Source: Trichaptum fuscoviolaceum
Taxonomy: Eukaryota; Basidiomycota; Agaricomycetes; Hymenochaetales; Trichaptaceae
Direction: 5' to 3'
Assembly: GCA_910574455.1 (NCBI GenBank)
Contig: CAJSYZ010000007.1
Coordinates: 2,549,773 to 2,613,772 of the forward strand
DNA length: 64,000 nt
Below are positions 2,283 through 43,558 of the stretch, piece after piece (the stretch's first letter is position 1; each line of letters begins with the position of its first letter). Under the pieces are notes generated by a model. The model saw nothing but the letters and a program-made list of their open reading frames with translations, was not told where the DNA came from and did no database searches. The position numbers and the translations under genes are program-made.

Positions 2283-2299
2283 CATCACGAAAGTCGCAT

Positions 2300-16714: not shown

Positions 16715-16748
16715 CATCAGGGAATCTTCTTTTTTGCTTACGGCTACT
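16715..16748 (+). repeat. left terminal inverted repeat of P1
   Basis: It pairs with 43526-43558 on the opposite strand. Conserved blocks are CATCAGGGAA, CTTC and TTTTGCTTACGGC. Confidence 0.8.
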
Positions 16749-17300
16749 TAACCGGCCTTAAGTCCTCTGAAGCCCTGGAAAGTAAAATTCTACTGATTTA
16801 CTGATTTCAGGCATGTGGTTTCATTATTCAGGAAGGGGCTTACTGAATTCAGTGCCGTCAACTGAAATCAGTGCTCTCAGTGCCTCAGTCTCCAGCATTC
16901 AAGCATATCAGAAGAATTTATTCTGGCAGTTTAATTGCAGTGCTCAAGAGTAAAAGTGTGTAAGACGTTCAAGTAGTTCATTCCATAAGTAATTCAGCAT
17001 TTAATCATATAAGTAGACTTTTTCGTCTGTAGGTTTGCAGTACCCAAGCGTGTAAGTGCGTACTAAGAGGTTCCAGTATTGGTTCATTCCACAAGTAATT
17101 TAAGACAGATAAGTAGAAATCAGTGCCTCAGTGTCCCTCAGTAACTACACCACGGCATCCTGATCCAGATCGTATTTCGCCACTTCTGCCTGTTCCTCGG
17201 CATACTCAGAGAACGAAGGCCACTGCAAGTTGATGATAGTAAGTGTTTGAATACAGTGGCGGGATGGTTAAAGCCAAAGCTCACCAGTGATCGACCTGCT
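16749..17300. repeat. left subterminal region of P1
   Basis: This stretch is repeat-like and AT-rich, with no gene. ACTGATTTCAGG, ACTGAATTCAGTG and ACTGAAATCAGTG recur. Two related blocks (16974-17015 and 17083-17118) share GTTCATTCCA, AAGTAATT and ATAAGTAG. The CAGG/CCTGA words resemble those inside the right terminus. Confidence 0.5.
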
Positions 17301-17301
17301 C

Positions 17302-17977
17302 TTAAAAGTCTGCGCCGTCCGTAGCCGAATCCCATAATGAACCCTCGTCGTCCTCGCGATCGCCTTCGCCTTCCCCGCCCTTTCTGTCTGCGTCATTCGC
17401 CTCGCCCTCAGAGCCTCCACTGAATCCATCACCCACGCTAAGAACCTCGTCCGCATCCTTGTTCTTATCCCGATCCTGATCCTTGTCCTCTTCATCGTCA
17501 TTGTCCTCATCCTGATCCTTGTCCTCGTCTCCCTCGCCAGACACACCCTCGTCCTCCATGTCGTCCTCCCTCTCCTTGAAATCCTCAACTTCTTCGCCGT
17601 CATTATCCTTGTCTTCGTTTCTCTCCTTGCACTTACCACTTCTATTAGCGCCCTCACCATGTGTATACTCGCCGCTCGCATCCGCGTCTCCAACGTCGAT
17701 ATATAGGGAGAAATCCCTGCCAGTGACACCCGATCCAACAAGTTCGGCGTTCCTTCCCGCATTGACATCTTCAACGGAGTTGTAAGCTTCTATGCGGGAC
17801 CGAACCTTCTCCCAGTTTGATTCAGTGAAAAACGAGGAATTTGACAATAAGTTGACATAGTCGTCCGTATGAGGCTGCCACAGAGCACTAGTGAAGTACC
17901 ACTCAGCACCACCAAGCTCTTCTTTGATATTTTGCAACCGGGCTACCTGCTTATCGATTGCAACTTTGACCTGTCCA
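17302..17977 (-). CDS. 3' exon(s) of the coiled-coil agaricomycete-specific protein (P1)
   Basis: The exon reads QNIKEELGGAEWYFTSALWQ, NLLSNSSFFTESNWEKVRSR and IEAYNSVEDVNAGRNAELVG. A long Asp/Glu/Lys/Gly tail runs to SLWDSATDGADF and a stop. The FTESNW segment matches the position of FSE-NW in a mushroom-specific family I recall as DUF6532-like, after a helical region such as that encoded at 20763-20918. I therefore read it as the end of the gene starting at 24190, separated by an intron enlarged to about 2.8 kb. The acidic tail could instead be poorly constrained read-through. Confidence 0.5.
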
Positions 17978-20762
17978 TGAGAGATTCAGTGAATAAAGCC
18001 ACTGCAAGTACTGAAGTAGATAGATACCGCTGTTGCCGCAAGGGCGAGGGCACCTATAGGCTTTGTCGGGATCCCCCAGGACCCCAACATGTCTAAGGCA
18101 ATCCCGAACAGAACCCGGTATACTGAAACCCGAAATCACGACCTTGGCTAGATCCCGAAAGGATCCCCCGCTCTCTGATCCCGGAAGAACCTCTGCTTCG
18201 CCATGCATTCTCCTGCTAAGAGTTCCGCCCCGCTACGACCTCCTCGCCCCTGCTTGTCCTCGCCCACGTCTCCTCGTCAGTCCCCCGCCTCGTCCCCGCG
18301 TCTCGATCCATCCCTAGCCCGCCTCGCCGTTCCCCCGACTCTAGGATGATCCCCCGCTTGCTCCCCGCTCCCGTCATGCTCTGTTCCCCGCTCCAGTGAA
18401 CCCCGTACCTCGCCATAGTCCCGAAGTCACTCACCATAGCCACCGCCATAGCCATAGCCTGCCACAGCCATAGCCATAGCCATAGCTATCCCAGACCTCG
18501 TAGGTTCTCGACTATGCCCGGATACCATATCCCGGCCTCGCGTCCACAGTCATGAAGTGCAGTTAGGAGATTGATCCACTGCGTCCAAAGCCGACCTCTG
18601 TCTGGCCTTGAGTAAGCCAACACGACAGCGGTCAAGGATTGCTGTCCCGCAATCCTGCCCGGTCACGAACCCTGCCCTGCGCTTGTCCTGCCACGGTGCC
18701 CTAGCTAACCCCTTCGACATCCTGTGCCTCTCGACCTGCCCTTGTTCGTCCACAGCCTGCCCCGCCAGGAATCCCGCCTCGCCGCGAACGCTGTCAAGCG
18801 TCCTCTCTGACAATCCCGCAACCCACGCTCGTTCCCGGTTGGAGTCCCGTCAAGACTCCCCCACTCGTCCCGGTTGGAGTCCCGCCAAACTCCCCCCGCT
18901 CGTTTCCCGACTAGAGTCTCGCCAGACTCCCCCGCTCATTCCCGGTAGAAACCCCGCTCGCTTCCCGGTTGGAATCCCGCTCCTTTCCCCCGCACGATCC
19001 CAGTCGAAAACCCGCTCGTTTCCCGCCTCGCGTCCCGTCTCGAATCCCTGCGCAAATCCCCCGCAGGATTCCCGCCTTCTATCCCGCCGCGACTCCCATC
19101 GCAACCCCAGCTAAGTTCCCGCTCTGATTCTCGAAAGATTCCCGCTACGATTCCCGGTCGAAACCCGAACTCGATTCCCAGTCGAAACCCGAACTCGAAA
19201 CCCGGTCGAAACCCGAACTCGAAACCCGGTCGAAACCCGAACTCGATTCCCAGTCGAAACCCGAACTCAAAACCCGGTCGAAACCCGAACCAGATTCCCT
19301 GCAGGATCCCGTCGCGAATCGCGCGAGTTTCCCGTCGTCCAAGGGAAACCCCTTAGCTTCCCCGCTCCTCGATGCTAACCTCGTCTTGAGATAGCCCCAG
19401 GTGATTGGCCTGGCCACGCACGTGCCAGCCAACTACTGTCCCGGCCCGTAGACCAGATTCCCGCCACCCCGTGTGCGGGATTGATCTCATTGTCCGCAAG
19501 GACTCGAACCTCGTCCTTAGTCGCCCTGCCCCGCGCGCGCCTCGCGATTAGGCTTCGTTACGACATCGAAGCACCGGCTTCTTCGAAGTTGGTCCCTGTC
19601 GATCTCCCGCGACCCTGATCCACGCCAGAAGTTGCCTGCAACTTATCCCGAGACGATGTATGCATTACATCCGCCCCCCACGCTCGTTACCCCGCTGCCT
19701 GTGCGCCAGCTTGATACCTCGCGCACAATTACATTCCTTTAGTTCTCTTTGTTTCACTTGACCATGCTTCACGCTCGTTCCCTTAGATCTTGCCCAGATG
19801 TTCCCGCACCGAATCCCGAATCCCGGATTCACGTCACTGTAGGCGCGGCCTTCGCCCGCAAGATTGTGTAACTAGTTAGTTGCGCGTTTGTGCATGCCCG
19901 TTCCCTGTAGATTCTGCCCAGTAGATAAATACCTGTCGCCACCGTAAGGAGCACTCACTTTTGTCCTCTTGTCGAGTGCTTCCTTAGGTGTGTTTCTGTC
20001 TTGTCTCTAGTGTAGTTTTACAATGCTGACTTGTCGAGTGCTTCCTTAGGGAACCTCCTCCTGATAACAGAAGTGTTGCCTTGAGATCCCGGTTACCCTG
20101 AGCTCTCTGCTCCTGTCCTGAGCACGCCTGCTCTCTGGCTCTCTTGTCTCGGTCTTGTCCCGGATCCCGCTCTGCGAATCCCGCTCTGAGTCCTGCCCAG
20201 AATCCCGCTCTGTGATTCCCGCCAGAATCCCGCTCTGTGATTCCCGCCAAAGCCCCGAACGATTCCCGCTCAATCCAGATCCCCGCACGAATCCAGATTC
20301 CCGCACGAATCCAGATTCCCGCCAGAATCCCGCTTTGCATTTCCCCGCGTCTCGACTCTGTCTCCCCGCGCCTCGACTCTGCCTTCCCAGCCTCGACTCT
20401 GACTCCGTCCCGTCCTCGCCTTGAGCCCCCTTGCGTCTCGCCCCCGTAGCCTCGCTCCCCGCGCGACTCCGTTGGCGTTGTAGCGTCCTTAACGGTTCCC
20501 CTTCGCCTTCTCCGCTGCCGCGCGCTCTCCCAGGCCTTGCCCCGGAAGCCGCTAACGCGCCCCGGCCCCCCAGGTTCCCCCCAGGTCGTAACAGGCTTTC
20601 CTATTGTGTTCTTGTCCAATACTTTATGCCGACCCAGGGCCAAGACAATGTGCACGGACAACACTGAGACTACGAGGTCAGAGCAGAACAATCCTTGCTT
20701 CTGTGTACATTCATAGTCAATGCACGGACTCGAAGGGTGACATTGAGTGAAATCTCACACAC
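17978..20762. other. C-rich insertion within an intron, with minisatellite and LTR-like sequence
   Basis: The gene's other introns are roughly 50-70 bp; this gap is about 2.8 kb. The plus strand is strikingly C-rich, built from variants of GATCCCGCTC, GATTCCCGC and AATCCCGAAC. A 24-bp minisatellite (unit like GGTCGAAACCCGAACTCG) runs through about 19150-19290. A possible LTR lies within 19840-20020, with TAAATA at about 19925, and TTGTCGAGTGCTTCCTTAGG occurs twice (about 19970 and 20033). Minus-strand TGTTACGACC at about 20590 resembles Ty3-type LTR starts. Long open frames here are low-complexity artefacts. No element borders or target duplication could be fixed. Confidence 0.45.
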
Positions 20763-23700
20763 CCTTTCCATACTATGCCAGCGTTCCCAGAGGAATGGTT
20801 CAGCTTTCTTCTTGTCGACCATCGTCTGCAACATCTTCACAATTTCTTCGGTCTCCACTGACTTAGAACGCTCGTTGCCGACGAAACTCGAAATTGACTG
20901 CTCGGCTTTCTCAAACAATTTCTTCCGCCAACTATCAGAGCATCTCTGGGCTGCCTACAGAATAGATCATACCTGATTCAGTATGGCCGATGTAAGACAA
21001 ATAGGGATGACTCAACTAAAGAACAGATGTCGGCCAATTGTGTGTCGTAACTAAGTTCGACAGAATCAAATACTTTCCCCCACAGTGTTCCGATGGACTT
21101 ATTGTCTGGGTTTTGCCATGGAGTTGTGGACTTTCCGACTGCGCGATACAGCGAAGGCAGAAGAATATGAGTCCAGCCAGCCTGAGTTCCGGGAGGAAGA
21201 CACTGATTCGTTGCCCTTTTTTTGCCGAGAGCGCGGGATCCCTCCCTTCCTTTACTATTTCTATCCTTATCCTCAAGTCCTACAGATGTCTGCATGTAAG
21301 CAAGTTAGTGGATGCATGTCACAAACATGAATGGATCAACGCACAGAGCTAGTAGTCCGAGAGACTTTGCGATGACCAAGATGAGCCTTGGTTGCGAGCA
21401 CTTCGGGTTTGGGACTGAAGGATACTGTCGTCATCGCAGGTGATTGTGCTTGTGGTGTTGGCGACACCTCACGACCACTTGCCTGTCAGAAGAACCGAGA
21501 ATAAGTACCGAATCAATTGCAGCAATTAGCTCACACTTGCAATATGATGTGCATGAACCGCCAGTGACCTCTTCAGATTGCGAACAGAGGTAGTAGATTT
21601 CATCTGTAGCAATTAGAGGAGTTCTTACCAAGGGAAGCTCGAAGAGAATTAAATACCAGTATATCAGCCTGAGAATGACTGTCTTGCGGTTCACTCTCCT
21701 TAGCAGTATTTAAGTCCTTGTCGCTTGATCAGAAAACAATATGAAATGGAAATTAGATGTGATTGACACTAACTGTTGAGGCAGCCTGGGATGGAGGCTT
21801 CTTCATATACACGTTCATGCTAGCCTGTTTTAGATAGTAAGGAAGTGCTTTTGAAATTGGGTGGAAGAGTACGAATTACCACATCGATATGTGAGTTTGA
21901 GTCAGGCGGCGACTTCCTCTTCTTATTATTCACAATCATGCTGTCCTACACATAAACAAGGTTTAGTGGACATCCAGATACTTGCCAAAGAAAGGGGCAC
22001 CAAAAGTAATCCTAATGAGTGTCGATGCCTACACATACCTGTATCTGTAGATGCGACGCTGGAGACTGCCCCCTATGACCCTCAACAGAAATACCGTCCT
22101 GACGGGAAAATAGATGAGTATACGGGTGAGGATTAAAAGCAGAATAAACTTACCAATACATCGAGTTGGGAGTTGACGATGTTCGTCATGCTCGCGCCCT
22201 ATTCAGAGTACAATTTGGTAAGTAATGAAGGAAGTATATTCGACGCCGGAGGCCACAACAAAGTATGGCACCAAGTCCATGCTTTGTTGTGTAGAACTCA
22301 CCTGAATGCCCGATTGTCCCTTGATATTCTTCTTCTCCAGTGCATAAAGAAAGAAAAATAAGTAGCTTGAACGAAACAGGAGATTATGAAGCCGCTTACC
22401 AGTGTTATATGAGCCTGCAACTCGGAGAGAGTGTCGCGGGATAGCTTCCTTTTCTTCAATTTGCTGCTAGCTCCATCCTGTTACGATACAGAAATGATGT
22501 TAGATAGCCATCGTTGTGCATGAGACTCCACCGACGTATAGTTATTGTGAATCAAACGATTTCTTTGAAGTATAAGCGGCACTTACATTGGCTTGGGTCG
22601 GTATTGTCAGTCTACTCACATCCTAATTAAACGCACAATCAAAATATTAAGATTTCCTCTGCCAGTCTAATTAATGCTCCATCCAACTCACAATATCAGT
22701 GTCGGAGTCAACGAGATGTGCCGTCTGTCGTTCGCTAGCTGAGCTATTCTTTACACCTTGGAAACTCGTGAGGGTTACTGTCACTCCTTCATCCTCCCAA
22801 GGACTAAAGTTCGCATCGTCTTGCGCCGAGACGGGGAGCCTAGTTTTTCCTTGTGTCAGCCAGGCTCACAACTTGTAATAAAGATAAGAATGTGAGCATT
22901 ATAAGTGAAGAAGCTGCAACTTGCCAACCCGGGTGGCATCTCGGGGTCACAGTTAAGTGCCAACCTGAGTGTGGCACCGCCGCGCGCCGGTCAAGCCGGT
23001 CACTGGCACGGTGTCGCCAGGCGCACTCAGGCTCAAGTTAGTAGTAGTAATACTAATCTGTAGTACGATGTCGGATAAGCTTCAAGTAGCTGAGTCTAAA
23101 TCAAGCTTCACACTTACTATCAACTTGAATTTGTTTGAAATTGATCTTTCGTACTATGATGCCAACGGTTGAGTAGTAGTACGACTTAAAACTCACAAGT
23201 CGATCTCCTCTGTCCCTGCGACCTCAGGGTTTCTGCCCTCTCCGCCGAAGAATGTGGATCCATCTGTGTTGCGAAGTGCCCTAACAGGTCGCTTTGTCCT
23301 ATCGTTCTGCTTCGACGTATTGGGCGACTCTATCATGTCTGTATCCTCACCAGAAAGACTGCTGTTTTGTCCTGCAAGCGTACTATGATATCCGGTGCCA
23401 CTTATGGCACTATTTGAACCCTTTGCACCCTGCACGCGAGTACGGAAAGGAAGTGCACCTCTGGTATCCTTTTTCCTAACTTTCTTTGCGCGCGCTCTGT
23501 TGGGCGCATCGGAGTTAGCTGCATCATAATGTGAGTTAAAGTGGTCACCCTTGGAGTCTAAAGTCATAAAGGCAAACAACTTACGAATCTTTAAATGTTC
23601 GCCGTCTTCAGCTGCACAAGAGCTGTCTTTTTCATCGTTCGTTGAACCTGTTATGCCCATATCTCATAACTCGACTGTCACTGACTTGAAGATAAGGACT

Positions 23701-24190
23701 CACTAGTTTCAGGGACGCCTTTCGACTTGTTTCGCCCTCGTTTGCCAGTGCCAGCCAGCTTAGGTGCAGTTGAGCCCATATGGGTGCGAATGTCAAGAGC
23801 CTTTGACAAATTGTTCTCAAGCTCCATCGTCTCCAGTATGGCTGTTTCCTGTTGCTCTGCTGCAGTTCTTTTCTTGCGTACCTTCTCAGATGCCTCTTGT
23901 TCTTTCGCTGCCCGTTTCTGTTCCGCGATGAGTTTTCTCTTCTCTCTCGCATACGCGGCTTGCTGTGCCGCAGCTTCGCGCAGAGCTGCCCGTTCTTCCT
24001 TCTGTTTTTCCTTCTCCTCCTTCTCCCTCAATGCCTCATCACGCTTTGATGCCTGTTCTTCTCTCCTTCTCTCCTTCCCTTCCTTCTCCCTCAATATCTC
24101 CTCTTTCGTTCGACGTGTTCGCAGCTTATTGACTACCGCTCCCGGATGCTGATCGCTATTCTTAGCCCGCGTCTGTCTTTGAGTTAACAT
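20763..24190 (-). CDS. coiled-coil, agaricomycete-specific multi-exon protein (P1 cargo)
   Basis: The N-terminal exon (ATG at 24190) encodes a Glu/Lys/Arg-rich coiled coil opening with RTRRTKEEILREKE and passing through AKEQEASEKVRKKRTAAEQ. Small exons follow, including RNPEVAGTEEIDL, SSKLKKRKLSRDTLSELQAH and a SerThr-rich stretch. Next is THILLPSLYRAVGKSTTPWQ with IGTLWGKVFDSVELSYD. The last exon reads AEQSISSFVGNERSKSVETE and FLWERWHSMER before a GTGTGTGAG donor. The order of coiled coil, serine-rich middle and helical LP-LY-R-PW domain matches a mushroom-specific family, probably DUF6532-like (from memory). The function is unknown. Many of the roughly ten exon borders are unverified. Base composition is ordinary apart from the C-rich insertion downstream. 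Confidence 0.5.
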
Positions 24191-24778
24191 TCCTGTGCAG
24201 TAGTAATAGGGGCACACTGGCAGGTGCTATGAATATCGATGGTGAGTCGACTCAGAGTCAAAGGTGCAAGTTAAAGTTCAAGTTGAAGATGAGGGCGCCT
24301 ATTCAAGGAAAATTTACGCCCACTGCCAGCCTGCCACTGGCACTCAGGCTGGCAGTGACTCGGAGTGCCAGTGAGCGAGCCTGAGTCATGGCGGTACCTG
24401 GCACTGGCGCTGGCACTGGCACTCAGGCTCACTCAGACTGGCACTGGCAGGCTTCAACTTGAAGTTGCACTCCGACTCGGATTCCGGCGACCGAGACGGA
24501 AGCCTGACACTGGAACTGGCAGTCAGTGAGTCAAGGCACTCAGCCGCAGCCTTCTACCGTACTACTAGCAAATCTGCCAGGTAGACTACTACTAGCTCCT
24601 ACTACGCGAGTCCACCTTGGCGAACTCGATTCGCTGCCAGTGCTACTTCAAGTTCAAGTTGACAGCTTCAGCCTGAGGCTGGGGATTCATGTTCTAACTT
24701 AGTAAGTCAAAAGTCGAAGTAAGTCAAAAGTCGACTTCAAGTTGCTAATAGGTACTACTATAGGTTGCATCCAAGTCG
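24191..24778. repeat. palindromic-word simple repeats between divergent P1 genes
   Basis: There is no gene. The sequence is a mosaic of short self-complementary words: TTCAAGTTGAA, GCCAGTGCCACTGGC-like tracts, CTCAGGCTGAG, ACTCGGAGT and CTACTACTAG. It separates the divergent starts at 24190 (minus) and 24779 (plus), so promoters must lie within or beside it. Confidence 0.6.
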
Positions 24779-27700: not shown

Positions 27701-28747
27701 CGTACAAACAACAGGGGCAGCCGATGATACAGAGGACTTCTTCGATGACATTGTGGGCAACCAAGAGCAAATCGAAATTGCTGACCTGGAGGATTCCGGA
27801 AGTTCAGTGGATGAGCCCCAGTGTGGTGCGGTTCATAGCGTAGAATGCCAGCTTCGCTTGGGCGGCAGAAATGACCCTTTGAGCTTGATGTTAATGGCTT
27901 CGAAACAACGTTAGTATTACTTAGTAACCCGTGCTTTTGGTGCTGCACATCTGACTTCTCTGTTGTTATACTTGCAGAGTCCAGTAAGGTGTACCCGAAA
28001 CAGCTCAACGCGCTTGCGGCGATAAAAGGCCATCCAGAGCTTCGACAGCTCCGACAGCTCATTAAAGAATACTTATTCAACAAGTATGAGAAGCGCAATT
28101 CCAACTTAAGGGGCTCCTCTGGCAGAGCCGAACCAACAGCTGAATTGGACATGAACAATGACTTCTCAATTTTCCATTCAGCCACCGCTTTCTTTGCCTA
28201 CCGTGGCGAATCGATCCCAATAGAACAAGCAATGAGGGAGGTGATCAGGTCCAATCCCTCTTGGCGCGGAAAAGCAAGACATGACGCAGTCCTTGTTCGA
28301 GTTAGCCCCCGCAAAAAGGGGTTTTCAGGAATGAGAGTTGCCCGGGTTATGCTTCTTTTTTCCTTCACCGCTAAAGGGGAGCATCAGGACTGCGCTCTCG
28401 TCCAATTGTTCAAGCGTGTTGGAGACTCGCCTGACCCAAAAACAAGTATGTGGATTGTCGAGCCGGAATATGAGTTAGAGACCTCTACCGCCTGTGTTGA
28501 ATGCTGTTCTGGTGTGAATGCCAGTGGCAGACGTCACTATCACCGTGACTGCAAGGCTCCGAAGCTATTGGTGATAGGTATAGGGGACATCTTTCGTTTG
28601 GCTCACCTCCTTGGGGTTCCAAAGGGTGATGAATGTCCGCCGAAGTCATTGACACCTGAGAAGTCCCTGGACTTTTATGATAGATTCTATGTTAACCGAT
28701 TTGCTGACATGCACATGCACGAATCTTTGTACGAAAATAGACAGTGA
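24779..28747 (+). CDS. Plavaka-type transposase of element P1
   Basis: The N-terminus has a C2H2 finger (CTFSDCDRRFKNQSARTRHE), as in other Plavaka proteins. Family landmarks follow in order: NVWFPYSCRADFELADFLY, YTVIDATEVGDVSWKSFSNF, VWYRDPLEVIRNLVDNPALE, HGSMFVPVILGSDKTTVSVG, YYPLYLSIGNVSNKARRSQK, IADYPEQVSLCAICTGWCCK, CTAPHKDLD, ICDLISPDLLHQIIKGVFKD, FPGLRRFPEGRGFKQWTGND, MKVYLPAIVGIVHDDIIHAL, QHAMVHYPTMIPLFAAPSG and CSSITENKHIHAVKETWRRS. A C-terminal module with YHRDCKAPKLLV follows, ending at YDRFYVNRFADMHMHESLYE. About eight introns are needed and no obvious frameshift was seen. It is the likely mobiliser of P1, though P1's size suggests it moves rarely. It is distinct in sequence from the P2 transposase. 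Confidence 0.88.
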
Positions 28748-30014: not shown

Positions 30015-31881
30015 TCAGTACTGGTGTGGGATAGGGTCCAATTTGTCGAGAAGAGCAAATAGGATTCCATAATCCGTTAAATAGAATGGACCATACTCAT
30101 GAAGTAGATCGTTGACTGTTTTCAAGACGAGAGAGTCAATATTCTCTTCTGTCGGAACAAGGGCTTCAAGATGCTCCATGTGCTCGATATCCTTGAGGAA
30201 CAAGTGGGTGGACCTGTCCAGATTTTCCTCGTCTGTATCTTTGTAATCGGCATTGTCAAATCGTCCAATGCCCTGACTCGCTTCGATAATCCCTATTTGA
30301 GAGGCATCCATCTTCATCGTAAACCGACGCATTGCACCATCATTTTTGAGGAGCATATCCAAGAGCAAGTCGTCAGAGAGGATAATTAAGCATTTCCTGA
30401 TCCAATTGAACCTGCTCAGGATGGCCGAACGGTCTCCATATTTGCGCAGGAGTTGTCGATTTATCTTCAACGAGGATGCTACGCCGTCAGCCGAGTCGGC
30501 GCCAAGAATATCCATTGACTTCTGAATGAGTTGTTGAATGTCGGACAGAGCACCCTCTCCACCGGCACGTTCAAGTTCACGTTTCCATTGACGCCGTGCA
30601 TCACGTGCTGTTCCGGCTTGAAAGACAGCCTTCGTCTGAGTGGCAGAACAATTGACTTCTGTTTCCGAGAGTCGAATGTTGGTCGACTCTGACTGTTGTC
30701 CCAAACTGCATTCGTCTAAGGCGGCTACCCAATCCTTGCATTCGTTATAGGACCAAATAAGAAGGGGCAGGAAGAACTTAAGCGCAAGCCTGGGATTTCG
30801 GGGTTTGCGTTCAGATCTTTCGAGATTCATAGCCATGACTGTCGTAAAGTGCTTCAATTGAGTAGCGAGTTCATGACGAATATTTCTCCCGAGCTCTGTG
30901 TCTTTGATGTCAATCCTTATCGCAGAGAAGACAGATTTCGTCTGTATCCAACGATTGCCGAGCTCCTTACTATCCTCAAGTCGAATTTGCCAGCGCAGGA
31001 TCGTATGGTGTGAATGATAATGGGTTACTAAGCAAGTCAAAAAGTAGTCCCAGATGACGCCCCCAGTAAAAATATTGGAGAGTTTTCTTGACGGAAATGC
31101 GCCGGGAAGAACAGATATGAAGGCTGTGGCGACAGCAAGTCTGAATTCATCCACACGTTTGTTGATAAGCAGATGAAGCGGCTCAGACTGTATATCACCG
31201 AGAAGAATAGGACGAGAAGTTAGAAATGATTAAGTCAGAGTTTATTTCAAGTCCAAGATGCAGCCTGGGCTTACCATGTGATGCTTGAAGATCGCTAGCT
31301 CTTCAGTGAGTTTGAAGAGCATGTCCGTGTACTGAAATGTATTGGACTCAAGCTGATCTATCGCCCTCTCCATCTTTCTCCGCAGAGCTTGAATCTCCCT
31401 ATCCCTCTTAAGGATCCTCATATTTGCTGAATCAAAGCACATCCCTAGGCGCTCAGCCAGGTGAAGCGTTTCCTGAAAGTCCTCCGACGAGAATCCGACG
31501 CGGTCTGCACGCTTTATCTTGGACGACAAACTTTTGACGATTGATTGGACCACGGTGCTATCGATAAATAGTTTTGACTGAAAGCCTCGGGGTAAGTCCT
31601 CTGTCAATTCACCAAAGATAAGCCAAGCTGCGTAGTAAGTAAGCAATATGATCCCTACCGAAATCGATAAGTTCGAGAAATGCATCCTGTTCCCAGTCGG
31701 TGCCAGACTCGGAGTCGGACCCATCGACAATCGAGCGCTTTGAGCTACTACTGTCGCGAGTACCAGGTATGGTGAATTCTGAAACGCTCTGCTCATCATC
31801 TGTATCCGGGCTAGAGACTGACTCGTCATCTGTATCCGAGCGAGAGCCTGAAGTTTCGTCCCCGCGTTCGGAACTTGACAT
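30015..31881 (-). CDS. P1 cargo protein of unknown function
   Basis: I do not recognise the family. The N-terminus (ATG at 31881) is a Ser/Asp/Glu-rich disordered segment. A helical exon follows (LFIDSTVVQSIVKSLSSKIK, MRILKRDREIQALRRKMERA), probably a coiled coil. The large last exon of about 375 residues reads EFRLAVATAFISVLPGAFPS, RKLSNIFTGGVIWDYFLTCL, LALKFFLPLLIWSYNECKDW and YKDTDEENLDRSTHLFLKDI, ending LLDKLDPIPHQY. There is no signal peptide and no clear catalytic motif. Two introns near 31600-31640 and 31155-31270 join the parts. Frames are open and codon use looks coding, so it is probably a real protein. The composition suggests a helical scaffold, but that is only an impression. Confidence 0.6.
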
Positions 31882-33219
31882 GCTGGGAGTTTGACAGTAA
31901 CCTAACTTCGAGCCTCAATGGTAAGAAATACCAGTAATGGCGTGCCACTACCAGCGGCGGAGAGTAGTAATTGAAAGAAAAGCAAGGCTTGTTGACGAAG
32001 GATGGTTCAAGTTTAAGCGCCGTGTGAACGGCGTGGATCTATAGGGGCATCATCGGTCATCATCCTCAGGCTGAGCCTGCCAGTGAGTACCAGTGCCAGT
32101 CACATTGGTGTGAGTGAATGATGACAGGCGGTAGTTACTAACTTACTAGTACTAACTTTAGTGAACTCTCACTCAGCGGAAACTCAGCAGACTGCCGATT
32201 TGTGGGACCCTCGATAAAGGCCTCTGGCGACTTGGTCCTTCAGTTATATCGGGACAATTTGAGCCACGTTCAAGTTTGTGCCACTGCCACTGCCACTGGC
32301 AGGACCCGGCCCGGGATCAGGTCAGCCTGCCAGCCCAGTGAGTGAGGCTGCCGGTGTTGGCCTAGTACTACTAGTAGTAGTAGTACTATAGTAGTAGTAG
32401 TAGTAGTAGGCCCTTCCGGCGCTCTCTTGCTATCCGAACTCAGGTGTGTCAGGCCTTGAATCCCCTCTACTTCTGGATGTCGGTTCAGCTCTCAAGAACC
32501 CGGATTCTGCCCCATCTGTCGCAACTACTTACGAAGCCCATATCATTGTGCTTGTCACCGGCCCTCCTCAACTGAAGCTCAGCCAGGCCTTGAAGATCGT
32601 CTGCCAGTGCCAGTGGCCGGAACTTGTTCAGAGCCGAATCGGATGTTCCGCACATGTATGTATTTTAGTACTACAACTAGAGCTCTAATACTACTAATAC
32701 TACTACTAGTAGTATTACTAACAGTGGTAGACTCGGAGATTGTCACTCACTGGCACTCACTGGCAGGCTGGCAGGCACTGGCAGTGACAGGGGACTTCCT
32801 GTCCGGAGTTCGAAACGGACCGTTGCCAGCAGCAACTTGAACTTCAAAGTCGTGCTGAGTCACCGGCGCCGTGCACTACTAGTACTAGTAGTACTACTAC
32901 TAGTAGTAGTATAGTAGTAGTAGTAGTAGCTGCCACTGGCAGCCAGATTCAAGTTGAACTTGAACCGCTGACTCGTCACCGCCGCGTGCGTCACGGTGAC
33001 TCCGACTTGCAGTCACCAGTGCCAGTGGCAACTCCGAGTCCTTGAACTTCAGCCTGCTACTACTAGTAGTGAGCGTCCGGACTAGGCTTTAGCAGTAACC
33101 CAATACCCATCCAGAGTCAAATTGAACCTGAAACTTGAACTAAACTGCGCTGGCTGTCTCTGTGCCCCAGCCCGCCGCAACTTTTATCAATACATAGCAG
33201 AAAAAACATCAACTTGAAC
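31882..33219. repeat. palindromic-word simple repeats between divergent P1 genes
   Basis: There is no gene. The densest examples are 32360-32410 (TAG/CTA trinucleotides), 32270-32350 (CCACTGCCACTGGCAGG), 32740-32800 (CACTGGCAGGCTGGCAG) and 32875-33060. Many words are their own reverse complement, so hairpins are expected on both strands. Confidence 0.6.
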
Positions 33220-33550
33220 ATGGCATCAGATACTTTCAACGTATTTATGTCCGGCACAGGAAACGCTGATAGTAGGGCTCACCATATTGTTAATGGTCCG
33301 TATATCGTCATGGTATACTGACAGTTGTCTGAAATATTCACTACTAATTTCCATTCCTTTACTAAAAACAGCGGCTAGTATAGGATTGGGTTCACACCCC
33401 GTTGCGAAGGAGGATATTTACTTGGCAAACGTCCTTGACCGTATAAAATTCATCTTGCAAGCATGGGTGGAGAAACCCGGAACAAAAAAGACAGACCTAG
33501 CAGCACGCGCAGCTGTAATAATCGCAAACGGACTTCCGGACAAACCGTGA

Positions 33551-33916
33551 GTGACGGTCTCAGCCTGATTACTATGCGCCTGATTCTGACTCTTAAATTT
33601 GGCCCACTGGCAGTGGCGAAGTCTTGGAATCACATACCGCTCAGGCTGCTAGTGACTGTGAGGCTAGTACCAGTAAGGTGCCAGTGCTGGAAGCTGACGC
33701 CGAATCCGAGTCGTGAGTAACGGTATCAGCCTGAGTGCGCGTCCGAGTCTGACCATTCTTGAATTTGGAATGCACGCATCAAGTGGCGAAGTCACGGAAT
33801 TACATGCCAGTGAGGCCGGAAACTTGAACTTGAAGGTGTCGGAACATGAAGCTGACGTATCTGAGTCGTGAGTTACGGCGCCAGCCTGAGTACGCATCCG
33901 ATTCTGATCATCTGAC
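33551..33916 (+). repeat. triplicated exon-intron module
   Basis: Three successive donors at about 33548, 33714 and 33868 begin almost identical introns (GTGAGTGACGGTCTCAGCCTG, GTGAGTAACGGTATCAGCCTG, GTGAGTTACGGCGCCAGCCTG). The small exons between them share GAAGCTGACG and CCGAGTC/TCTGAGTC. This points to local duplication of an exon with its intron. The introns themselves contain the palindromic words. Confidence 0.6.
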
Positions 33917-35073
33917 AGTGGCAGCAACATCCACAAACACATCGGCCGTTCCCCCTACGACGATATCATGAAGGCCTTAGCCTCTATGAAAGAGCTAGAG
34001 CAACTTCGGATCGACACTGAGGAGAAAGAAAGAAGGCTTCGAGATGAAAAGGAAGATTTCGAACGGAGGCATAGGGAACTCCTGATAAATAAGCGGGACA
34101 GTGATCAGGAGCAATTAAAGCTTTTGCAGAATGAGTTGATGAAAACCAAAAAACTTATCTCAAATGTCGAATCAAACCTCTCAGAAGCCAACTTCAGCCG
34201 GGCGACTGACTCACTCCAGCTTCACAAGGAGAAGGATATACATGAGGAGCAATTGAAAAAGCATGAGGACGCTATTGAAGCTCTAAAAAAACAGCTCGCT
34301 CAAGATTACACCCTAATCGCGAGAGCTTCAGCTCAGGAGAGTCTCTTCGCCGTGACTTCGCGCAGGCTCACTAACCTGGAAAATTATCGAAAGCAGTCAC
34401 TAGAAAAGGAACAGCGGATTGTAGGACATATACGGGCTATTGACGACGCATTCGTTGATGTGACTGAGGAATTGGACTCGAAGGCGGACAAAGTGACACT
34501 CGAGGAGATGGCTGGGACTTACAAGTGTTTGCAGGAGACAGTGAAGGGTCTTGTATACACAGTACACGACTTACAGATTAGTGCGGCAGCCGCCAAAGGG
34601 GTAAGCCAATTTTGAGCTGCTATCGTAAAACAAATGAAGCTCACAGGATCTCACCCCGAACGAAGCCGCCAAAGCCAGCAGTAAAATACGCACCCTCTGC
34701 GAGGACAATAGGGTAGTCGTCATGAAAAGCTTCATAATTGCGTTCCCATTAGAGAAAGGATTCTTCTCTCCAAAACAGGTCATCCCTTATGACGTTACTG
34801 GCGAAAGTGGTTTTATGATTCGAAATTTTTTGAACAAGGTTGAACAACTCTACATGAAGTTCGCGACCCTATCACCTGGGCCGGGCAAGAAGCTAAAGGA
34901 AGGACGACGTACAGGCGAAGTCGGCATGAGTGGCATAGCTCAGGGCCCAGCGACAATCCTGTCTAATGACATTGCTATCATTCCAAGGCATCTATTCGAC
35001 GACCTGATTGTCGACATCACCAAGTCCTTGGCAGAGTTAGAGCTGACAGAGGCGTATGCGAAGGGAAATGATG

Positions 35074-35309
35074 AAGGAAAGGGAAGGGAAAGGGAAAGGG
35101 AAAGGGAAAGGGAAAGGGAAAGGGAAAGGGAAAGGGAAAGGGAAAGGGAAAGGGAAAGGGAAAGGGAAAAGGGAAAGGGAAAGGGAAAGGGAAAGGGAAA
35201 GGGAAAGGGAAAGGGAAAGGGAAAGGGAAAGGGAAAGGGAAAGGGAAAGGGAAAGGGAAAGGGAAAGGGAAAGGGAAAGGGAAAAGGGAAGGGGAAAGGG
35301 AAATGGAAA
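35074..35309 (+). repeat. (AAAGGG)n hexanucleotide microsatellite in coding frame
   Basis: About 236 bp of nearly pure AAAGGG encode Arg-Glu repeats in one register and Lys-Gly in the others. Extra-A interruptions at about 35170 and 35283, and an AA/GGGG change near 35290, alter the register. The frame entering the tract differs from the open frame leaving it. Confidence 0.9.
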
Positions 35310-35769
35310 GGATGAGTTCGAGGCTGTAGATGTGTCGGAGGATGCATCGAAGGAAAAGACGGCGACGCCATACTCCTGGCAGCCACCACTTAACGCATCA
35401 ATCGTCGACCAGTTCAAATTTTTCCTGGTCCGATTTTTTATAGTCTTCGAATTTCACCGAAGACTATTCTTCCTCCTCGATCGCCGGCTAAGCCAGCTGG
35501 AAAGGAACCCGATGGATCCTCAGACTATTGATTTGCTGGATGCCGACGCGGCCTGGAACACAAACGCGAAAGTAATACTGGATAAGGATTTTACCGGCTA
35601 TCTCTTTGACGACCAAATGTATGAACATCGGTTCAAAGGCTTGATGGTAAAGTCACCAGTACCAGCAGCTCCAGTTTTACCAGAGCCACTAACTACTGCA
35701 AAGACGTGGAGTAATTTTACGCAGCAAATATTCCGTGAAATAACTTAGAGAAGCAATAATAAATAATTA

Positions 35770-36250
35770 AAAGTGATCGACAACGAGATTCGAACACACG
35801 ACCCGTATCGGAATAAGAATTACCATAAAGAGAAGCCGTGCTCAAGTCAACTAGACTACTGAGGCTTATACTACCTTGCCTTACTTAGTACTTATATACT
35901 GTCCCAACGGGGCGCAGCCCCGCAAGGAGTTAGGGTTATTGTTAGGGTTATTGTTAGGGTTATTTAAGGGTTAGTGGGGGGTTTGGGGGGCTCTGCCCCC
36001 CATAGTTAGGAGTTAGGGTTTGGGTAAGGGTTAGGGAGATAGGTAGTTAGGGTTGTTAGGCTTAGTGTTGAAGATATATATAATCCCCCTTAGTATAGTG
36101 GTTAATGTGTCGTATTAGTTAGTTTCCGGTTTAGGCTTTTATAGAGTCGCAAGTTCGAGTCACGTTTGTGTAGTTTACTTATATTTTGTATATGTTACCA
36201 CGCTATTTGGTATTACCACTTTGTATTACTTGGGTATTATTTCTACGTGG
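35770..36250. mobile_element. 481-bp retroposon-like insertion with telomere-like core
   Basis: The segment is bounded by direct repeats AATAATTA (35762-35769 and 36251-36258), consistent with an 8-bp target duplication. Its core (35930-36058) holds about six TTAGGG units in degenerate order. G-rich hairpins GGGGCGCAGCCCC and GGGGGGCTCTGCCCCCC sit beside them. Outward-facing tRNA-like sequences flank the core: B-box-like GTTCGAATCTC read leftward at about 35795, and TAGTATAGTGG with GTTCGAGTC read rightward at about 36091-36155. It lies between two coding segments of the host gene. It resembles a SINE-like retroposon but matches no family I can name. Confidence 0.6.
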
Positions 36251-37089
36251 AATAATTACTGCTCTGATTTACCCCACGTCTTTGCAGTAGTTACTGGACT
36301 TGGTAATACTGGATTGGCTGGTACGCCTCGTAAAGTTCCACTTCGAGGACCACTTTGCCAGGATGGCTGAGCTGGACGGGCAAGAGTACGTGGGCCCGGA
36401 GGATATACCGTGCGTGGCTGTAGGCGGGACTCTCGAAGTGCCGCAGGTCAATGTCGCGTTGAAGGAGATGCAAGAATACTTCGACCGTTTATGCCTGAAA
36501 ATGGAGGCCACCGTGCCAATGGCATCCGCCGACCTGAAAGCGGGTCAGACGAACGAACCCATCCCCAAAGCCCGTGAAGACACGAGCGTGTCTCCCGATG
36601 ATTTGAGACTACGGCGGCTATTGAATCGACGTAATGAGCATAGGGAGAAGGCTTTAACCCTCGACACTGCGATGAGAATTATCTTGGTAGACGAACTCGT
36701 CCCTGACATTTTCAACGACACACGATTCCGAATGTTTTTTAAACAAGGTTGCCCATGACCGCTCTGAAATCAGTGACCCCGCTGGCCTTCGCACATTTGT
36801 TGAGAATGCTGAGGACATTTTGAAAGTGCAAAAGGATGTTTTCCCCGAACCTGTAAAAACCCGACTGCTCACATTATGCGAGATAGCGGATCAAAACAAG
36901 CCTTACGGCCGGAATTTCAATGAGTCGCATATCAGTGGGCGTTTTTGGGGCCAGAAGTTGCGGTCCATCTTACTAGGCGCCAACTCGCAGGCTGAGGATG
37001 AACTACCCATTGATTCTTTGGTACTTCGGATTTTAGGCGCAGGCGTGCAGCAGCTCACAGATGTGTCAACTCAGACGATCACACAGTGA

Positions 37090-37706: not shown

Positions 37707-40433
37707 ATGACATCCACCGCCCCCCAACCTCCAGGCTTGCCAGGGCCACATCCAAGGAATACTACTAGTAGAGCAAACAATGACCGACGCGGATGTGAGT
37801 TCTGCGTTCTCCATCTCTGTCACAGGCAATACTGATTGCTGACTACCCCAATAGTACAAGACGAAGATGTACTGGGAGTTACAACGCCACCTTTCAGTGC
37901 GCAATGTGCGTCCTATGCCTTCCTTCACTGACACTGGCAATACTGATTACTGCATCACCCATCTCTAGTTTTGCAGGCCCTAGGGGTTAACGTTGAAGAA
38001 GCTGCAGGAGGACATTCTTCATCAATGCCGACTGAAAGTGAGTCCTTCCTTCCCTTCACTGACACTGGCGAAACTGATTGGTACTTAACCTGTTACCAGT
38101 TTCACAGGCCCCAGAAACTGCGATTACTGATGACGAACCTGTGCAAGGACAAGGTTCGGGGGAACGATTTATCATTGCCGGTGGCCCTGCCCGTGGGTCA
38201 TTCACCGTCACGAGTTCCTTAGACTCGGAGGGGGGAAGCCTCCTACTATCAATTCCTCTCGCATCCCTTCAACCAGACTTGAAGTCACAGCAAACCAAGT
38301 CCGTCCTGTCTTCAGCGGTTGTGAATACGATTCTCGCGCAAAATCCTAACGCTTATCTCCCACGACGAACACATGTGTCAGAAGAGGAGCAGAAAGGTTA
38401 CTACCTTGGCTTCCCTGGCAAAACCGCGCCTGCTCGGGCGAACCGGTCCCAATTGGACGGCGACCAAAAAACGTAAATATGTGGGCATTGTTGGAAATCA
38501 CCGGATTGCCAATGTATGGCCGCAACTGCTCAAGAAGATCATGAAGTATCTCGATTCCGAGAATTTGCGGTGGAACAGTCTGGAAGCCAACCGTGTTGCC
38601 TACGGAGATAGTCGGGTGTGCCCTGTTTTTGTTTTGATCGGAGTCAACGACCCGTCACTTCGCACTGAAGATGCGTGCCGCATCGCGGAACGCGTTAAAG
38701 AGTTCCTCTTTGAAATGCGCATCTTCGACGTTGAGGTCGAGCTCAGGGAGCGAAAAATCATTAGCGCCTCAGGCCAGGGCAAAGCTTCTGTCAGTGTTCC
38801 ACCTGTTGTGCGCACTGGCACCGGCGACTCAAATACTCTGGCTAGCGGTCATGCTGAGACTGGCGTTGGCAATACCGCTCCCGTTCACACTGGCTTCAGT
38901 TTTCATCCGGAACTCACCAACCTTCCCAGACGTTCCGATCGTCGCACTGCTCCGACGAACAATGGAGGTGCGGGGGATGTCACTGAGCATAATGACGGTA
39001 ACAGCACCAGGCCCCTTGTCGCTAGCGCTCACGGGGCAGAACCCTACGCCTACCCAACAGAGATACTGTTCACCGCACCTGCGGGAGCCGATAATTATTT
39101 CCGCCTGTGGGATCGCATGATGGATTTCCCAAGCAGGCCAGTGGCAGCTGCCAACAAGCCAATCAGTCGTATGACACCGTCTTTCTCCATGGTCACAGGA
39201 ACTTGCCTTGGCAATCTGGAGGGTGGCTTCTCAACGGGGTCGCTCTTTATCCTACAAAAGCTCGATAACACGACGTTCAAGGTGTTCATCCTCGGTACTC
39301 GCCATGGCAACGTTCCTTCGAAATTCGGAGACTACGATCCATACGCAGATACAACAATTAAGCCGCGCGACCCAAACGACAATTGCCCAATTTATCTCTT
39401 CTCTCGCGAGGCTCTAGCCGCCCATGTGCCAATGATTGGCGCGCTTCACGATGAGTTAGAAGCGGCAGCGTTTACTCACTGGCAGTCACTGGCACCTGAT
39501 CTTCCGCCGTCTGCTGAACAACAAGCTTTCGCGGATATCGTAAACAAGTGTCAATTCATTGAGCAATCTTGGCTTGATAAGACGTCATCGCCACATTTGT
39601 GGATTAATAATCGTATTGGGAAAGTGGCCAATGCTCCCCCTCGAAGAATGGGTAACTTGACTATCTCCGAGACACCCTACCTTACGGATTGGTGCTTGAT
39701 CGAGGTGGACGACCAATGCCTCCCCAACGAATTTGAATTTTCCTCTACTGATGGTGAAGGTCTCAGTTGGAACAATTTCTATAACGTCATCGACATTAAT
39801 AGGCTTCCTCCATCGTCGGCAGCTCAGTCTGTACCACGAGAAGCACTCTTGTCTAGGCTTGGCTGGAAAGGGAGGGACTTCTTTAGTCCAATCCGAATTG
39901 CGGGATATGTTCTGGAAGAAAATATATTCCCCCGGGTCCAGGAGCACCAATTGGACGCAGATTATGATTATGGATGGACTTTCATCGACAATCTCGTCGC
40001 TGTGGGGTTTAAGCGAACTGTGTACAAATGGGGCTGGAAAACTGGCCATACGTTAGGCGAGGTCAACAACGTTGCTGCCGTTCTCAGATCTATGCAGGTT
40101 TCCCCTGGGCACGTTGAGCAGACTACGCATATTGCTTTACAGATCCCACCGGGTTCGGTTGGTTTAGGGAATATCGGGCATAGGAACAATGCTATGTTCG
40201 CAGAACCGGGGGATTCGGGTGCCATAATCATTGATCAGCACAGACGTGCAGTTGGTACCATTTCAGCTTGCGGACTCATCGAAGCGAGGGATAGGGATAA
40301 TCAGAGTGTACTCGACGGTTATACTTATGGTGTCGCTCTATGGCAAACGGTGAAAGATCTTGAGACCTCTTTTTCTCTAGCTGAAAGTGAATTCAAGCTA
40401 GGCATGAATGCACTTCCGGACAATGAAGTATAA
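37707..40433 (+). CDS. trypsin-fold serine protease-like protein (P1 cargo), possibly frameshifted
   Basis: A chymotrypsin-like domain is inferred from an ordered catalytic triad: His in ILGTRHGNVP (codon 39301), Asp in YLTDWCLIEVDD (39687) and Ser in AEPGDSGAIIID (40214). YKWGWKTGHTLGEVN matches the conserved strand before the Ser loop. There is no signal peptide. An upstream helical domain reads RIAERVKEFLFEMRIFDVEV. I recall a large mushroom family with this architecture. Three short symmetric phase-1 exons lead in from ATG 37707 (LQDEDVLGVTTPPFSAQ, FLQALGVNVEEAAGGHSSS, ISQAPETAITDDEP). The frame from 38078 (ending ...FPGKTAPARA) and the long frame carrying GRTGPNWTATKKRK overlap at 38373-38476 one register apart, with no room for an intron, so one indel near 38430-38445 is likely. 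Substrate and role are unknown. Confidence 0.65.
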
Positions 40434-42100: not shown

Positions 42101-42102
42101 GT

Positions 42103-42470
42103 CTCGATCTCTTGAAATTTCGTGAGTTCCTTCTTTCCGTTACCGATTCCGAGTCCTTGGAAATCAGGTATCACGAAGTTTTTAAATGTTTCTTCAGAGA
42201 AATGAAGACAGCTTCAAAATGACTGTGACTCGATCTCTTAAAATTTCGTGAGTTCCTTTTTTCCGTCTCCTCGGAAATCAAATATCACAAAGTCTTCACA
42301 ATGCTTCTTCAGAGAAATGAAGACAGCTTCAAGATGACTGTGACTCGATCTCTTAAAATTTTGTGAGTTCTTTTTTCCGGATCAACTTCGGAAATCAGAT
42401 ATAACAAAGTCTCCCAATGCTTCTTCAGAGTAATGAAATCAAGAAGACGACTTCAAGATGAACTTTACTT
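42103..42470. repeat. three tandem copies of a 115-126-bp unit
   Basis: Copies start at about 42103, 42229 and 42344. Each runs from CTCGATCTCTTAAAATTT through GTGAGTTC, GGAAATCA and CTTCTTCAGAGAAATGAAGA to a GACTTCAAGATGA-like end. Divergence is about 10-20% by eye. The unit has no open frame. Confidence 0.8.
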
Positions 42471-42582
42471 GATTTCGTACTAAAGCGGATTTATTCTCTT
42501 CCATCAGAATCAGAGCGCTGCGCAGTGTGACTCGGACTCGCAGGCGGTGTGCGGTGAGCGCTCTTTCGAATAATCCAGAAGA

Positions 42583-42867
42583 ATGGTTCAAACAGCTTCA
42601 AGTTATAAAAGGAGGACAAAATATCTCTTTGCTAAATATCCTATGCTCGCGCGATCATTAACTGTCATGCTACTCAACATTATAACCTTTATCCTGCGCT
42701 TCATAGCAGCATTTATGTCTAATTGCGGAGTCCGAGTCGGAGGAAGGCGCGAGTTGGACGAAGAGGACGCGATTGACAAAGGTGATTCAAGCCGTTTACT
42801 ATCTCAGTACAGATTGAGAGCTGACCCTTTGTTTCCTACAGTATACGATAGACTCGGAGAATTCTGA
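42583..42867 (+). CDS. small ORF with one possible membrane segment
   Basis: It encodes 94 residues from an ATG. A hydrophobic stretch (SLTVMLLNIITFILRFIAAF) could span a membrane, and an acidic segment (RRELDEEDAIDKGDSSR) follows. A GTATG donor-like site occurs just after the stop, so it may be an exon of a longer gene. No homologue is recognised and it could be chance. Confidence 0.25.
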   Translation: MVQTASSYKRRTKYLFAKYPMLARSLTVMLLNIITFILRFIAAFMSNCGVRVGGRRELDEEDAIDKGDSSRLLSQYRLRADPLFPTVYDRLGEF

Positions 42868-43039
42868 CGCTACTAGTGGCAGCGTCGGTTGTTATGAGAG
42901 GTGTGAGGTTCGTTCAAAAAATGCTAGGGTATGTATAACTTCCTGCCTCAGCACTGTTTATTCACTTACAAGTAGTCTACCATCTTCCAGTCTCTCTCTA
43001 TGATTCAGGGCTTGACTTTTCAAAATTTCCACAACAACT

Positions 43040-43525
43040 TAAATCGACACAGGCATGACTCAGGCTAGTACTACTCTAGTACTAGTAGTAGTAGTAGCGG
43101 TGCTCCTTCAAGTGCAAATTGTTTTCTCGCTTCCACCAGAACAAACATTTTACTTTACTATGAAAGATTAGAAATATCATATTGCTGGCATGTGTTTATC
43201 AGATATAATATGTATTCAAGTTGGTAAGTGCAATGATACACAGCATCAAAGTTGAGTGATGACATCCAATTTGGAGAACTTCCGTTTCGAAACTGATGCA
43301 CTTATGTTGCACTTACCATTGCACTTGAACTGCCCACTGGCATGCCGGTGCTTAAACCTCACTTAATCCTGGCTTGCCGCCTGATGTACAATTCCCCTCC
43401 TTTTGCACTGATTTTATCCTGAAACGCCGTGTTTTAAGGCCATCAGGCAGCCAGACAACCCTTCAGGCAGGCGTGGCAGCGCTTCGACCCATTTAAGAAA
43501 GCTTCAGGGCGCGCCAGGACGCGCC
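43040..43525. repeat. right subterminal region of P1
   Basis: There is no gene. CTAGTACTAGTAGTAGTAG at about 43075 is the last of the palindromic-word tracts. Then come CCTGATGTAC (about 43381), ATCCTGAAACGCC, CCATCAGGCAGCC, CTTCAGGCAGGCG and CTTCAGGGCGCGCC. These are CAGG/CCTGA motifs oriented toward the terminus and are candidate transposase-binding sites. Confidence 0.45.
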
Positions 43526-43558
43526 AGTCGCCGTAAGCAAAAGGAAGTTTCCCTGATG
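43526..43558 (-). repeat. right terminal inverted repeat of P1
   Basis: This is the inverted partner of 16715-16748, followed by TA and then by the FunK1 copy 2 promoter. GC-rich CTTCAGGGCGCGCC-type subterminal motifs lie just inside. Confidence 0.8.

Follow-up and report, generated by a model that had tools for sequence, protein, structure and literature searches.

What kind of insertion lies between positions 16715 and 43558 of the stretch of the Trichaptum fuscoviolaceum genome analysed here, and is all of it one mobile unit? The stretch, hereafter the window, comprises 64,000 nucleotides (C7:2549773-2613772 of the genome G000, 59.1 Mb in 12 contigs), and the element in question, named P1, fills 26.8 kb of it. 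A preliminary description had read P1 as a single Plavaka transposon of very large size that has defined ends, a full-length transposase, cargo genes and an empty site within the same window. From the sequence comparisons described below, P1 is with high probability a copy of a PlavakaB-type family with a unit length of 23.6 kb, which is likely to move by cut-and-paste via the predicted DDE transposase.

The termini CATCAGGGAA, located at 16715 on the plus and at 43558 on the minus strand with TA on each side, had been placed exactly. On the minus strand, the terminal 30 bases of the right side resemble the left end, with few mismatches and a length difference of two bases. Within the window the terminal 10-mer is unremarkable (three matches at no more than one mismatch versus 4.1 expected), and the proof was therefore taken from the whole genome, in which the 20-bp terminus with up to two mismatches has 640 matches and a reversed control pattern four. 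When the left 120 bp were used as query, 36 places with at least 98% identity were found (best 40 of 147 candidates scored), and the right 120 bp gave 39 such places (best 40 of 321 candidates scored). Ends were paired by eye according to orientation and proximity, and among the matches listed 35 of the 36 left ends have a right partner; the exception is C10:56401-56520, and on the right side four ends stay single. All 35 pairs that emerged from this search, which the preliminary description had proposed as a check, are flanked by a perfect target-site duplication (TSD) of 2 bp (eight read by eye, 27 computed), with ten different dinucleotides, namely TA, CG, TC, CA, TT, TG, GG, AA, GA, and CT. 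The paired ends are 15,207-81,027 bp apart (median 30,477 bp), and their spans sum up to 1,220,455 bp, thus 1.22 Mb or 2.1% of the genome with nested insertions counted in. As the TSDs agree also in pairs spaced 50-81 kb, these long copies are likely ordinary ones enlarged by later insertions. The sequence taken comprised the window copy and seven further copies (E1-E7) as a whole and the 300-bp ends of the other 27. Transposase exon 8 is found with at least 95% identity in at least 25 of the 35 pairs, a match to the protease-like gene in at least 31, and both in at least 23; the copies E2, E5, and E6 are absent from the exon 8 matches listed, yet exon 8 is present in all three. At the left end of E4 the word CAGTGC is found four times within 400 bp, compared with 0.61 times per kb inside and none in the right 400 bp, a result we do not rely on because it was one of four subterminal words picked after the left end had been seen.

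The copies also define how long the unit is. E1-E5 measure 23,510-23,676 bp, and the window copy is collinear with them from end to end, save for two insertions of 2,530 and 676 bp. The larger one is missing from all seven other whole copies and matches, with 83% identity over 142 bp, a sequence that occurs at either end of a Gypsy element in E7. A 97% relative of the smaller one sits inverted and at another place in E6, as the one extra insertion of that copy; the 676-bp insertion itself carries TTAGGG-like runs and, by eye, words near its ends that resemble tRNA promoters. Without these nested insertions (3.2 kb) the window copy amounts to 23.6 kb. Thus, one very large insertion is confirmed by copies and TSDs, whereas 26.8 kb as size of the mobile unit is ruled out by the two nested insertions. 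With 23.5-23.7 kb in E1-E5, the unit free of nested insertions still lies above the 20 kb from which a transposon is called giant (PMC6431247). In pairwise alignments of 16.2-23.7 kb, the seven full-core copies (the window copy and E1-E6, of which the latter six span 23.5-24.4 kb) differ from each other by 0.09-0.50% substitutions. Most changes are transitions, many of them at CpG (window copy versus E4: 28 changes, 24 transitions, 14 at CpG), as would be expected if P1 copies were cytosine-methylated. Since one-base indels number 11-22 per pair of copies regardless of the substitution count (22-107), part of the small indels between copies may be assembly error.

The transposase claimed to be full-length was confirmed as such at the level of its domain, since PF18759 covers the protein predicted by our splice model (Table 1) at profile positions 4-325 of 325 with an E-value of 5.2e-117. 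PlavakaB transposases have C(2)C and H(3-4)H motifs between the second D and the last E; candidates for these in the predicted protein are CAIC/CCKC, HAMVH, and TENKH, which follow in that order as read by eye. A homology search returned 757 proteins with E ≤ 0.001, and all of the 120 homologues listed have the PF18759 domain, with the best alignments showing 36-52% identity over 46-99% of the query. The named ones among them appear to come from mushroom-forming fungi, which points to an agaricomycete as the likely host. Elements of the PlavakaB type in Agaricomycotina are described to have 5'-CATCA..TGATG-3' termini, TSDs of 2-3 bp and a Plavaka transposase (Kojima 2025, PMC12730594). P1 has the same termini and a 2-bp TSD in 35 of 35 pairs as well as the PF18759 domain, and by these three likenesses it matches the PlavakaB type.

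For one copy, the genome has an unoccupied counterpart that is exact. The flanks of the 27.9-kb copy at C9:3075131-3103039, joined with a single CA, are identical to C9:3104260-3104424 at 163 of 165 positions without a gap, and the match extends 34 bases past the junction; this is the exact unoccupied paralogous site of that copy. Its target repeat has 41 matches listed (best 40 of 184 candidates scored). Of these, 39 span the junction, and the other two are a match interrupted by the element itself and a short fragment. The joined flanks of the window copy have contiguous paralogues at C7:2551879-2552055, which lies within the window (87%), and at C7:2782796-2782984 (75%), and a third paralogue is itself split by a P1 copy, C7:2468068-2493847, which lies elsewhere in the repeat. 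The empty site that had been proposed within the window is thus contiguous across the insertion site, but with 80-87% similarity and 12 bp of gaps at the junction it is ruled out as a clean one.

Besides the transposase on the plus strand, P1 is predicted to contain, in this order, a left gene (minus strand) before it and gene c (minus strand), gene d (plus strand) and a protease-like gene (plus strand) behind it. Domain scans covered part of the 124 open reading frames (ORFs) of at least 70 amino acids, and no scanned piece other than the transposase reached the Pfam cut-off, which includes the pieces of the left gene. Gene d was described before as coding for a coiled-coil protein; the gene is present, but in the window copy it is split by the 676-bp insertion, whereas its frame runs uninterrupted across this site in E4. 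The frame of the protease-like gene is 782 amino acids long in several other copies and 790 in P0001, and the window copy departs from other copies by a shift of this frame near 38.39 kb. In three of three aligned diverged proteins the motifs RHG (His), DW (Asp), and GDSG (Ser) are invariant, a pattern that fits a chymotrypsin-type triad. The protein has neither a Pfam nor a PDB sequence match, and its structure model, with a mean predicted local distance difference test (pLDDT) of 27, gives no support for a fold. Hence, of the trypsin-like protease proposed earlier the gene and the triad motifs stand, while the fold is unsupported and the frame is shifted in the very copy for which it was proposed. 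A profile search of 5.8 billion proteins with the protease gave only two relatives, both from read assemblies (about 8,000 candidates scored each). The genome itself has at least 70 matches to the P1-type protease (63 of 225 candidates scored). In several copies of P1, two or more protease-like matches lie about 4.0-4.4 kb apart, e.g., C8:3291362-3319542 and C9:3075131-3103039, which suggests a subfamily of P1 with a duplicated protease. The protease-like gene, gene c and gene d are present in all six other full-core copies, and a protease-like gene is found in a sister family as well. Therefore, the accompanying genes look like the gene set of the family rather than passengers of one copy, so that they are rightly described as present and doubtfully as cargo.

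P1 is not alone in this genome. With exon 8 as query, at least 26 matches with 95-100% identity (P1) and at least 124 with 80-85% (sister families) were obtained among the best 150 of 392 candidates, and 22 of the 26 P1-type matches listed are full length without stops, exon 8 being one exon of nine. We compared four sister families, F255 as a whole element (C1:760444-781062; 20,619 bp, TSD CG) and F268, F296, and F258 by the right arm of one copy each. F255 shares the left gene, the transposase and the ends with P1, with 70-83% identity in the left arm, 84.6% in the transposase region and likeness in the last 0.2 kb or so, and it differs in the right arm, where window 28.84-43.35 kb has no counterpart at the DNA level (E 1e-10). 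This DNA comparison suggested a wholly swapped cargo, which was ruled out as the protease-like gene is common to both at the protein level: that of F255 codes for 869 amino acids with 27.5% identity to the protein of P1 over 814 aligned positions, and the identity between the P1 and F255 types as a whole is 27-33%. The F255-type protease has at least 59 matches in the genome (52 of 241 candidates scored), and in some cases several of these are fragments of a single gene; 16 span all 869 residues, 14 at 97-100% and two at 93-94% identity, and one contains a stop. Its amino-acid changes are concentrated between the His and Asp motifs, which is a weak hint. Compared with copy C11, there are 67 nonsynonymous to eight synonymous changes, i.e., a ratio of nonsynonymous to synonymous rates (dN/dS) of 2.4 (Fisher p 0.015), a weak result that we do not rely on, and compared with copy C12 the numbers are 27 to four (p 0.28); for codons 351-600, a stretch chosen after the data had been seen, they are 38 to two (p 0.021).

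The other three sisters, compared by their right arms, carry the same transposase exons, and the right terminal 30 bp of three sister families are identical to those of P1. Only the tail of the protease is present in F268 and F296, and none of it in F258. A minus-strand gene lies downstream of the transposase in all four sisters, at the place of gene c, although the comparison of gene c of the window with a sister gene c was weak (hhalign probability 3%) and is not relied on as homology. Between F268 and F296 this gene has diverged much more strongly than the transposase next to it, with a dN of 0.19 and a dS of 0.16 versus a transposase dS of 0.02-0.05; a structure model of the gene c protein of a sister is helical with a pLDDT of 38. 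For gene d no tblastn match (E ≤ 1e-3) was found in the four sister right arms. The last 5.1 kb or so of F255, F268, and F296 are 98.1-99.3% identical, and the exon 8 proteins are 83.6-94.7% alike; F258 has the last 1.08 kb in common with them at 98% and, apart from that, only short stretches. This step from 80-90% to 98-99% identity makes it likely that right arms have been exchanged between families by recombination. A piece of an AAA ATPase (PF00004, 3.7e-6) is part of the shared right arm. The transposase exons have a dN/dS of 0.19-0.41 in 14 comparisons, all except F268-F296, between families with exon 8 less than 90% alike, which points to a transposase mostly under purifying selection between families; the value for exon 9 of F268-F296 is 0.32. 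The preliminary description had named termini occurring with other partners as a finding that would speak against a single element. Such termini do occur in the sisters; since F255 has a 2-bp TSD and the transposase and the other three carry transposase exons, they broaden the family and do not speak against it. Furthermore, the left flank of the 65-kb P1 copy at C2:4500723 equals the left end of F255 over 127 of 127 bp, and Plavaka families therefore likely nest in each other.

How does P1 relate to known systems? Some PlavakaB families carry TET/JBP as an extra gene (PMC12730594). In the T. fuscoviolaceum genome TET/JBP has three matches (C3:5436268, C8:4246, C9:1760512), none of them inside the 35 P1 pairs, and P1 has instead the left gene, gene c, the coiled-coil gene and the protease-like gene. 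In Amoebidium appalachense, Plavaka-linked giant repeats reach up to 50 kb and are described as tandem clusters with intron-poor genes and many tyrosine recombinases, usually flanked by transposases (PMC11244446). P1 shares with them the very large size and the Plavaka transposase, but has defined ends, TSDs, a transposase gene with predicted introns and a fixed gene order. The enlarged EnSpm/CACTA elements of Chondrus crispus (16-20 kb, four to five ORFs; cited in PMC6431247) are, like P1, CMC-type DDE elements enlarged by several ORFs; compared by description, they belong to another clade and are smaller. The basidiomycete DNA transposons with terminal inverted repeats (TIRs) that are active in Cryptococcus, KDZ1 (about 11 kb), KDZ2 (about 9.2 kb), and KDZ3 (about 10 kb), have TSDs of 4-8 bp and TIRs of 139-241 bp (PMC12810828), whereas P1 has roughly double their length, a TSD of 2 bp and TIRs of about 30 bp. 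No family B polymerase of Polinton/Maverick elements, no retroviral-type integrase and no capsid was found in the ORFs scanned. DUF3435, the domain of the tyrosine-recombinase captain near one end of Starships, was found neither in nine element ORFs nor in the spliced transposase, two relatives of the protease and two exons of the left gene. Starships (PMC12134995; PMC13066641 for Tremella) are giant fungal transposons with several accessory genes as well, but they have a tyrosine-recombinase captain and varied accessory genes, whereas P1 combines a Plavaka transposase of the DDE type with inverted ends and a single gene set in the copies compared. In the open-licence full-text literature we found no basidiomycete Plavaka element this large with delimited copies, and a literature search for proteases in EnSpm-type elements gave nothing. 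The earlier statement that such elements are little described in basidiomycetes thus holds within this literature, with giant Plavaka repeats being already known from Amoebidium (PMC11244446); P1 stands out by its size and gene set, and the kind itself is known.

For P1 as a PlavakaB-type cut-and-paste element, the transposase would bind the inverted ends of about 30 bp and excise the whole 23.6-kb unit, which would then be inserted with a 2-bp stagger. The copy number of DDE elements rises when excision takes place after replication or when the gap is repaired from the sister chromatid. EnSpm/CACTA elements have a second, partner protein, and by analogy the left gene might code for an accessory end-binding or regulatory protein. 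The protease-like and the coiled-coil proteins would serve the element in an accessory role and not be products of host genes in transit, and the protease and gene c are likely fast-evolving accessory factors, with processing of element proteins, removal of a host silencing factor, or rivalry among families as candidate roles. The sister families compared keep the transposase and the right end, F255 also the left gene and the left end, and vary the right arm. Several observations weigh against this reading. All six other full-core copies have private frameshifts of 1-2 nt in the transposase exons, so that most P1 copies may no longer be capable of moving on their own. Exon 8 of F268-F296 has a dN/dS of 1.2 (14.5 and 3.5 changes) and therefore no signal of purifying selection. 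The closest pairs of copies have at least as many small indels as non-CpG substitutions, the pair C2:1898579-1953425 has neither transposase exon 8 nor the protease among the matches listed, and E7 (15.2 kb) lacks about 17 kb of the core and contains the Gypsy element, of 7.3 kb. The frameshifts in particular are what one would expect if P1 were a non-autonomous or dead unit spread by the transposase of a sister family with nearly the same ends, and the identical right terminal 30 bp in three sister families and the 640 ends of the common type would supply the substrate for this. We consider this rather unlikely, as the predicted transposase of the window copy is open across 1174 amino acids, 22 of the 26 listed matches to exon 8, one exon of nine, are full length and free of stops, and part of the small indels is possibly assembly noise.

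Somewhat less likely still is a capture of the extra genes from the host, as passenger cargo in a Starship-like manner and with host or selfish functions unrelated to transposition. Gene d, which among the five families compared is present in P1 only, and the AAA ATPase piece in the sister right arm would fit such a capture, but the other six full-core copies all have the same gene set, an independent family has the protease-like gene too and conserves its triad motifs in spite of 27-33% identity, and among the roughly 8,000 candidates scored in each of the protein searches there were two close relatives and no homologue among host genes. A virus-derived or composite giant element of the Polinton/Maverick or Teratorn type that uses Plavaka ends is very improbable. 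The size, protease-like gene and coiled-coil proteins of P1 resemble those of multi-gene virus-like elements in general, and Plavaka-linked giant repeats exist in Amoebidium (PMC11244446); on the other hand, no significant polymerase, capsid or packaging domain was found in the part of the ORFs and proteins scanned, the protease and exon 8 have no relative in IMG/VR, from which records near this genome were possibly left out, and the transposase gene has predicted introns. The probability that P1 is an immobile segmental duplication or a chance inverted repeat is close to nil. The flanks of the window copy are paralogous to those of C7:2468068-2493847 (same repeat, other position), and P1 is mildly clustered, with seven neighbour gaps below 150 kb versus 3.0 expected (p 0.021; 36 positions, unpaired left end included), a weak result that is not relied on; copies of the sister families are not clustered (31 gaps versus 32.8 expected). 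Chance termini are ruled out by the TSDs in 35 of 35 pairs, and segmental duplication by the TSDs together with the joined flanks of 34 other copies, which do not match each other; the exact unoccupied site speaks against it as well. A cut-and-paste element of the PlavakaB type thus stands as the preferred reading of P1. Beyond it, we put forward tentatively, and as possible rather than probable, that P1 represents a lineage of giant modular Plavaka elements with a conserved chassis (left gene, transposase, ends) and an exchangeable right arm, in which the fast-evolving protease and a hypervariable partner gene would serve counter-defence or rivalry between elements; such a lineage would be a basidiomycete DDE counterpart of the Starships.

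Table 1. Features of P1 and its insertion site (window positions).
Feature	Position	Strand	Remark
Target-site duplication TA, left	16713..16714	.	2-bp TSD in 35/35 paired copies
Left terminal inverted repeat CATCAGGGAATCTTCTTTTTTGCTTACGGC	16715..16744	+	Read from window sequence; left end recurs genome-wide
Left multi-exon gene, predicted, approximate	17302..24226	-	Exon blocks kept at protein level in C1:760444-781062
Left gene exons (prediction)	17302-17985 (C-terminal acidic exon); several more within 20670-24226	-	
Nested insertion like a long terminal repeat (LTR) element, 2,530 bp, TG..CA ends	18064..20593	.	5-bp TSD GGCTT (18059-18063 / 20594-20598)
Plavaka transposase, predicted, 9 exons, 1174 aa	24779..28747	+	Splice model; PF18759; no internal stop
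Transposase exons 1-5 (predicted)	24779-25286, 25348-25964, 26018-26225, 26273-26510, 26576-26729	+	
Transposase exons 6-9 (predicted)	26789-26967, 26996-27092, 27156-27909, 27978-28747	+	
Gene c, two open frames (404 and 219 aa)	30015..31901	-	Same place and strand in 4/4 sisters
Gene d, coiled-coil protein, predicted, multi-exon	33220..37089	+	GGAAAG hexamer array 35076-35311
Nested insertion, 676 bp	35654..36329	.	7-bp TSD GTAAAGT (35647-35653 / 36330-36336); splits gene d
Protease-like gene, 702-aa open frame	38325..40433	+	Motifs RHG, DW, GDSG
Right terminal inverted repeat	43529..43558	-	Reads CATCAGGGAAACTTCCTTTTGCTTACGGCG on the minus strand
Target-site duplication TA, right	43559..43560	.	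Read from window sequence
Unoccupied paralogue of insertion site	2107..2283	+	Contiguous; gapped at junction

P1 sits between two genes for FunK1-type protein kinases, at window 13234-16132 and 43725-46647 (PF17667, 2.7e-54 and 1.4e-51). Moreover, the left flank contains a piece of a second, diverged Plavaka transposase on the minus strand (11090-12241; PF18759, 5.2e-17).

The giant transposons with defined ends known from fungi are mainly Starships, which depend on tyrosine recombinases, and 23.6 kb is unusually large for a DNA transposon of the kind found here. With 35 delimited copies, exact TSDs and an unoccupied site, the size limit of cut-and-paste transposition, the role of the accessory genes and the exchange of right arms become testable. 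As P1 spans make up 2.1% of the genome and at least 124 sister exon matches come in addition, it is likely that this Plavaka lineage is a main shaper of its host genome.

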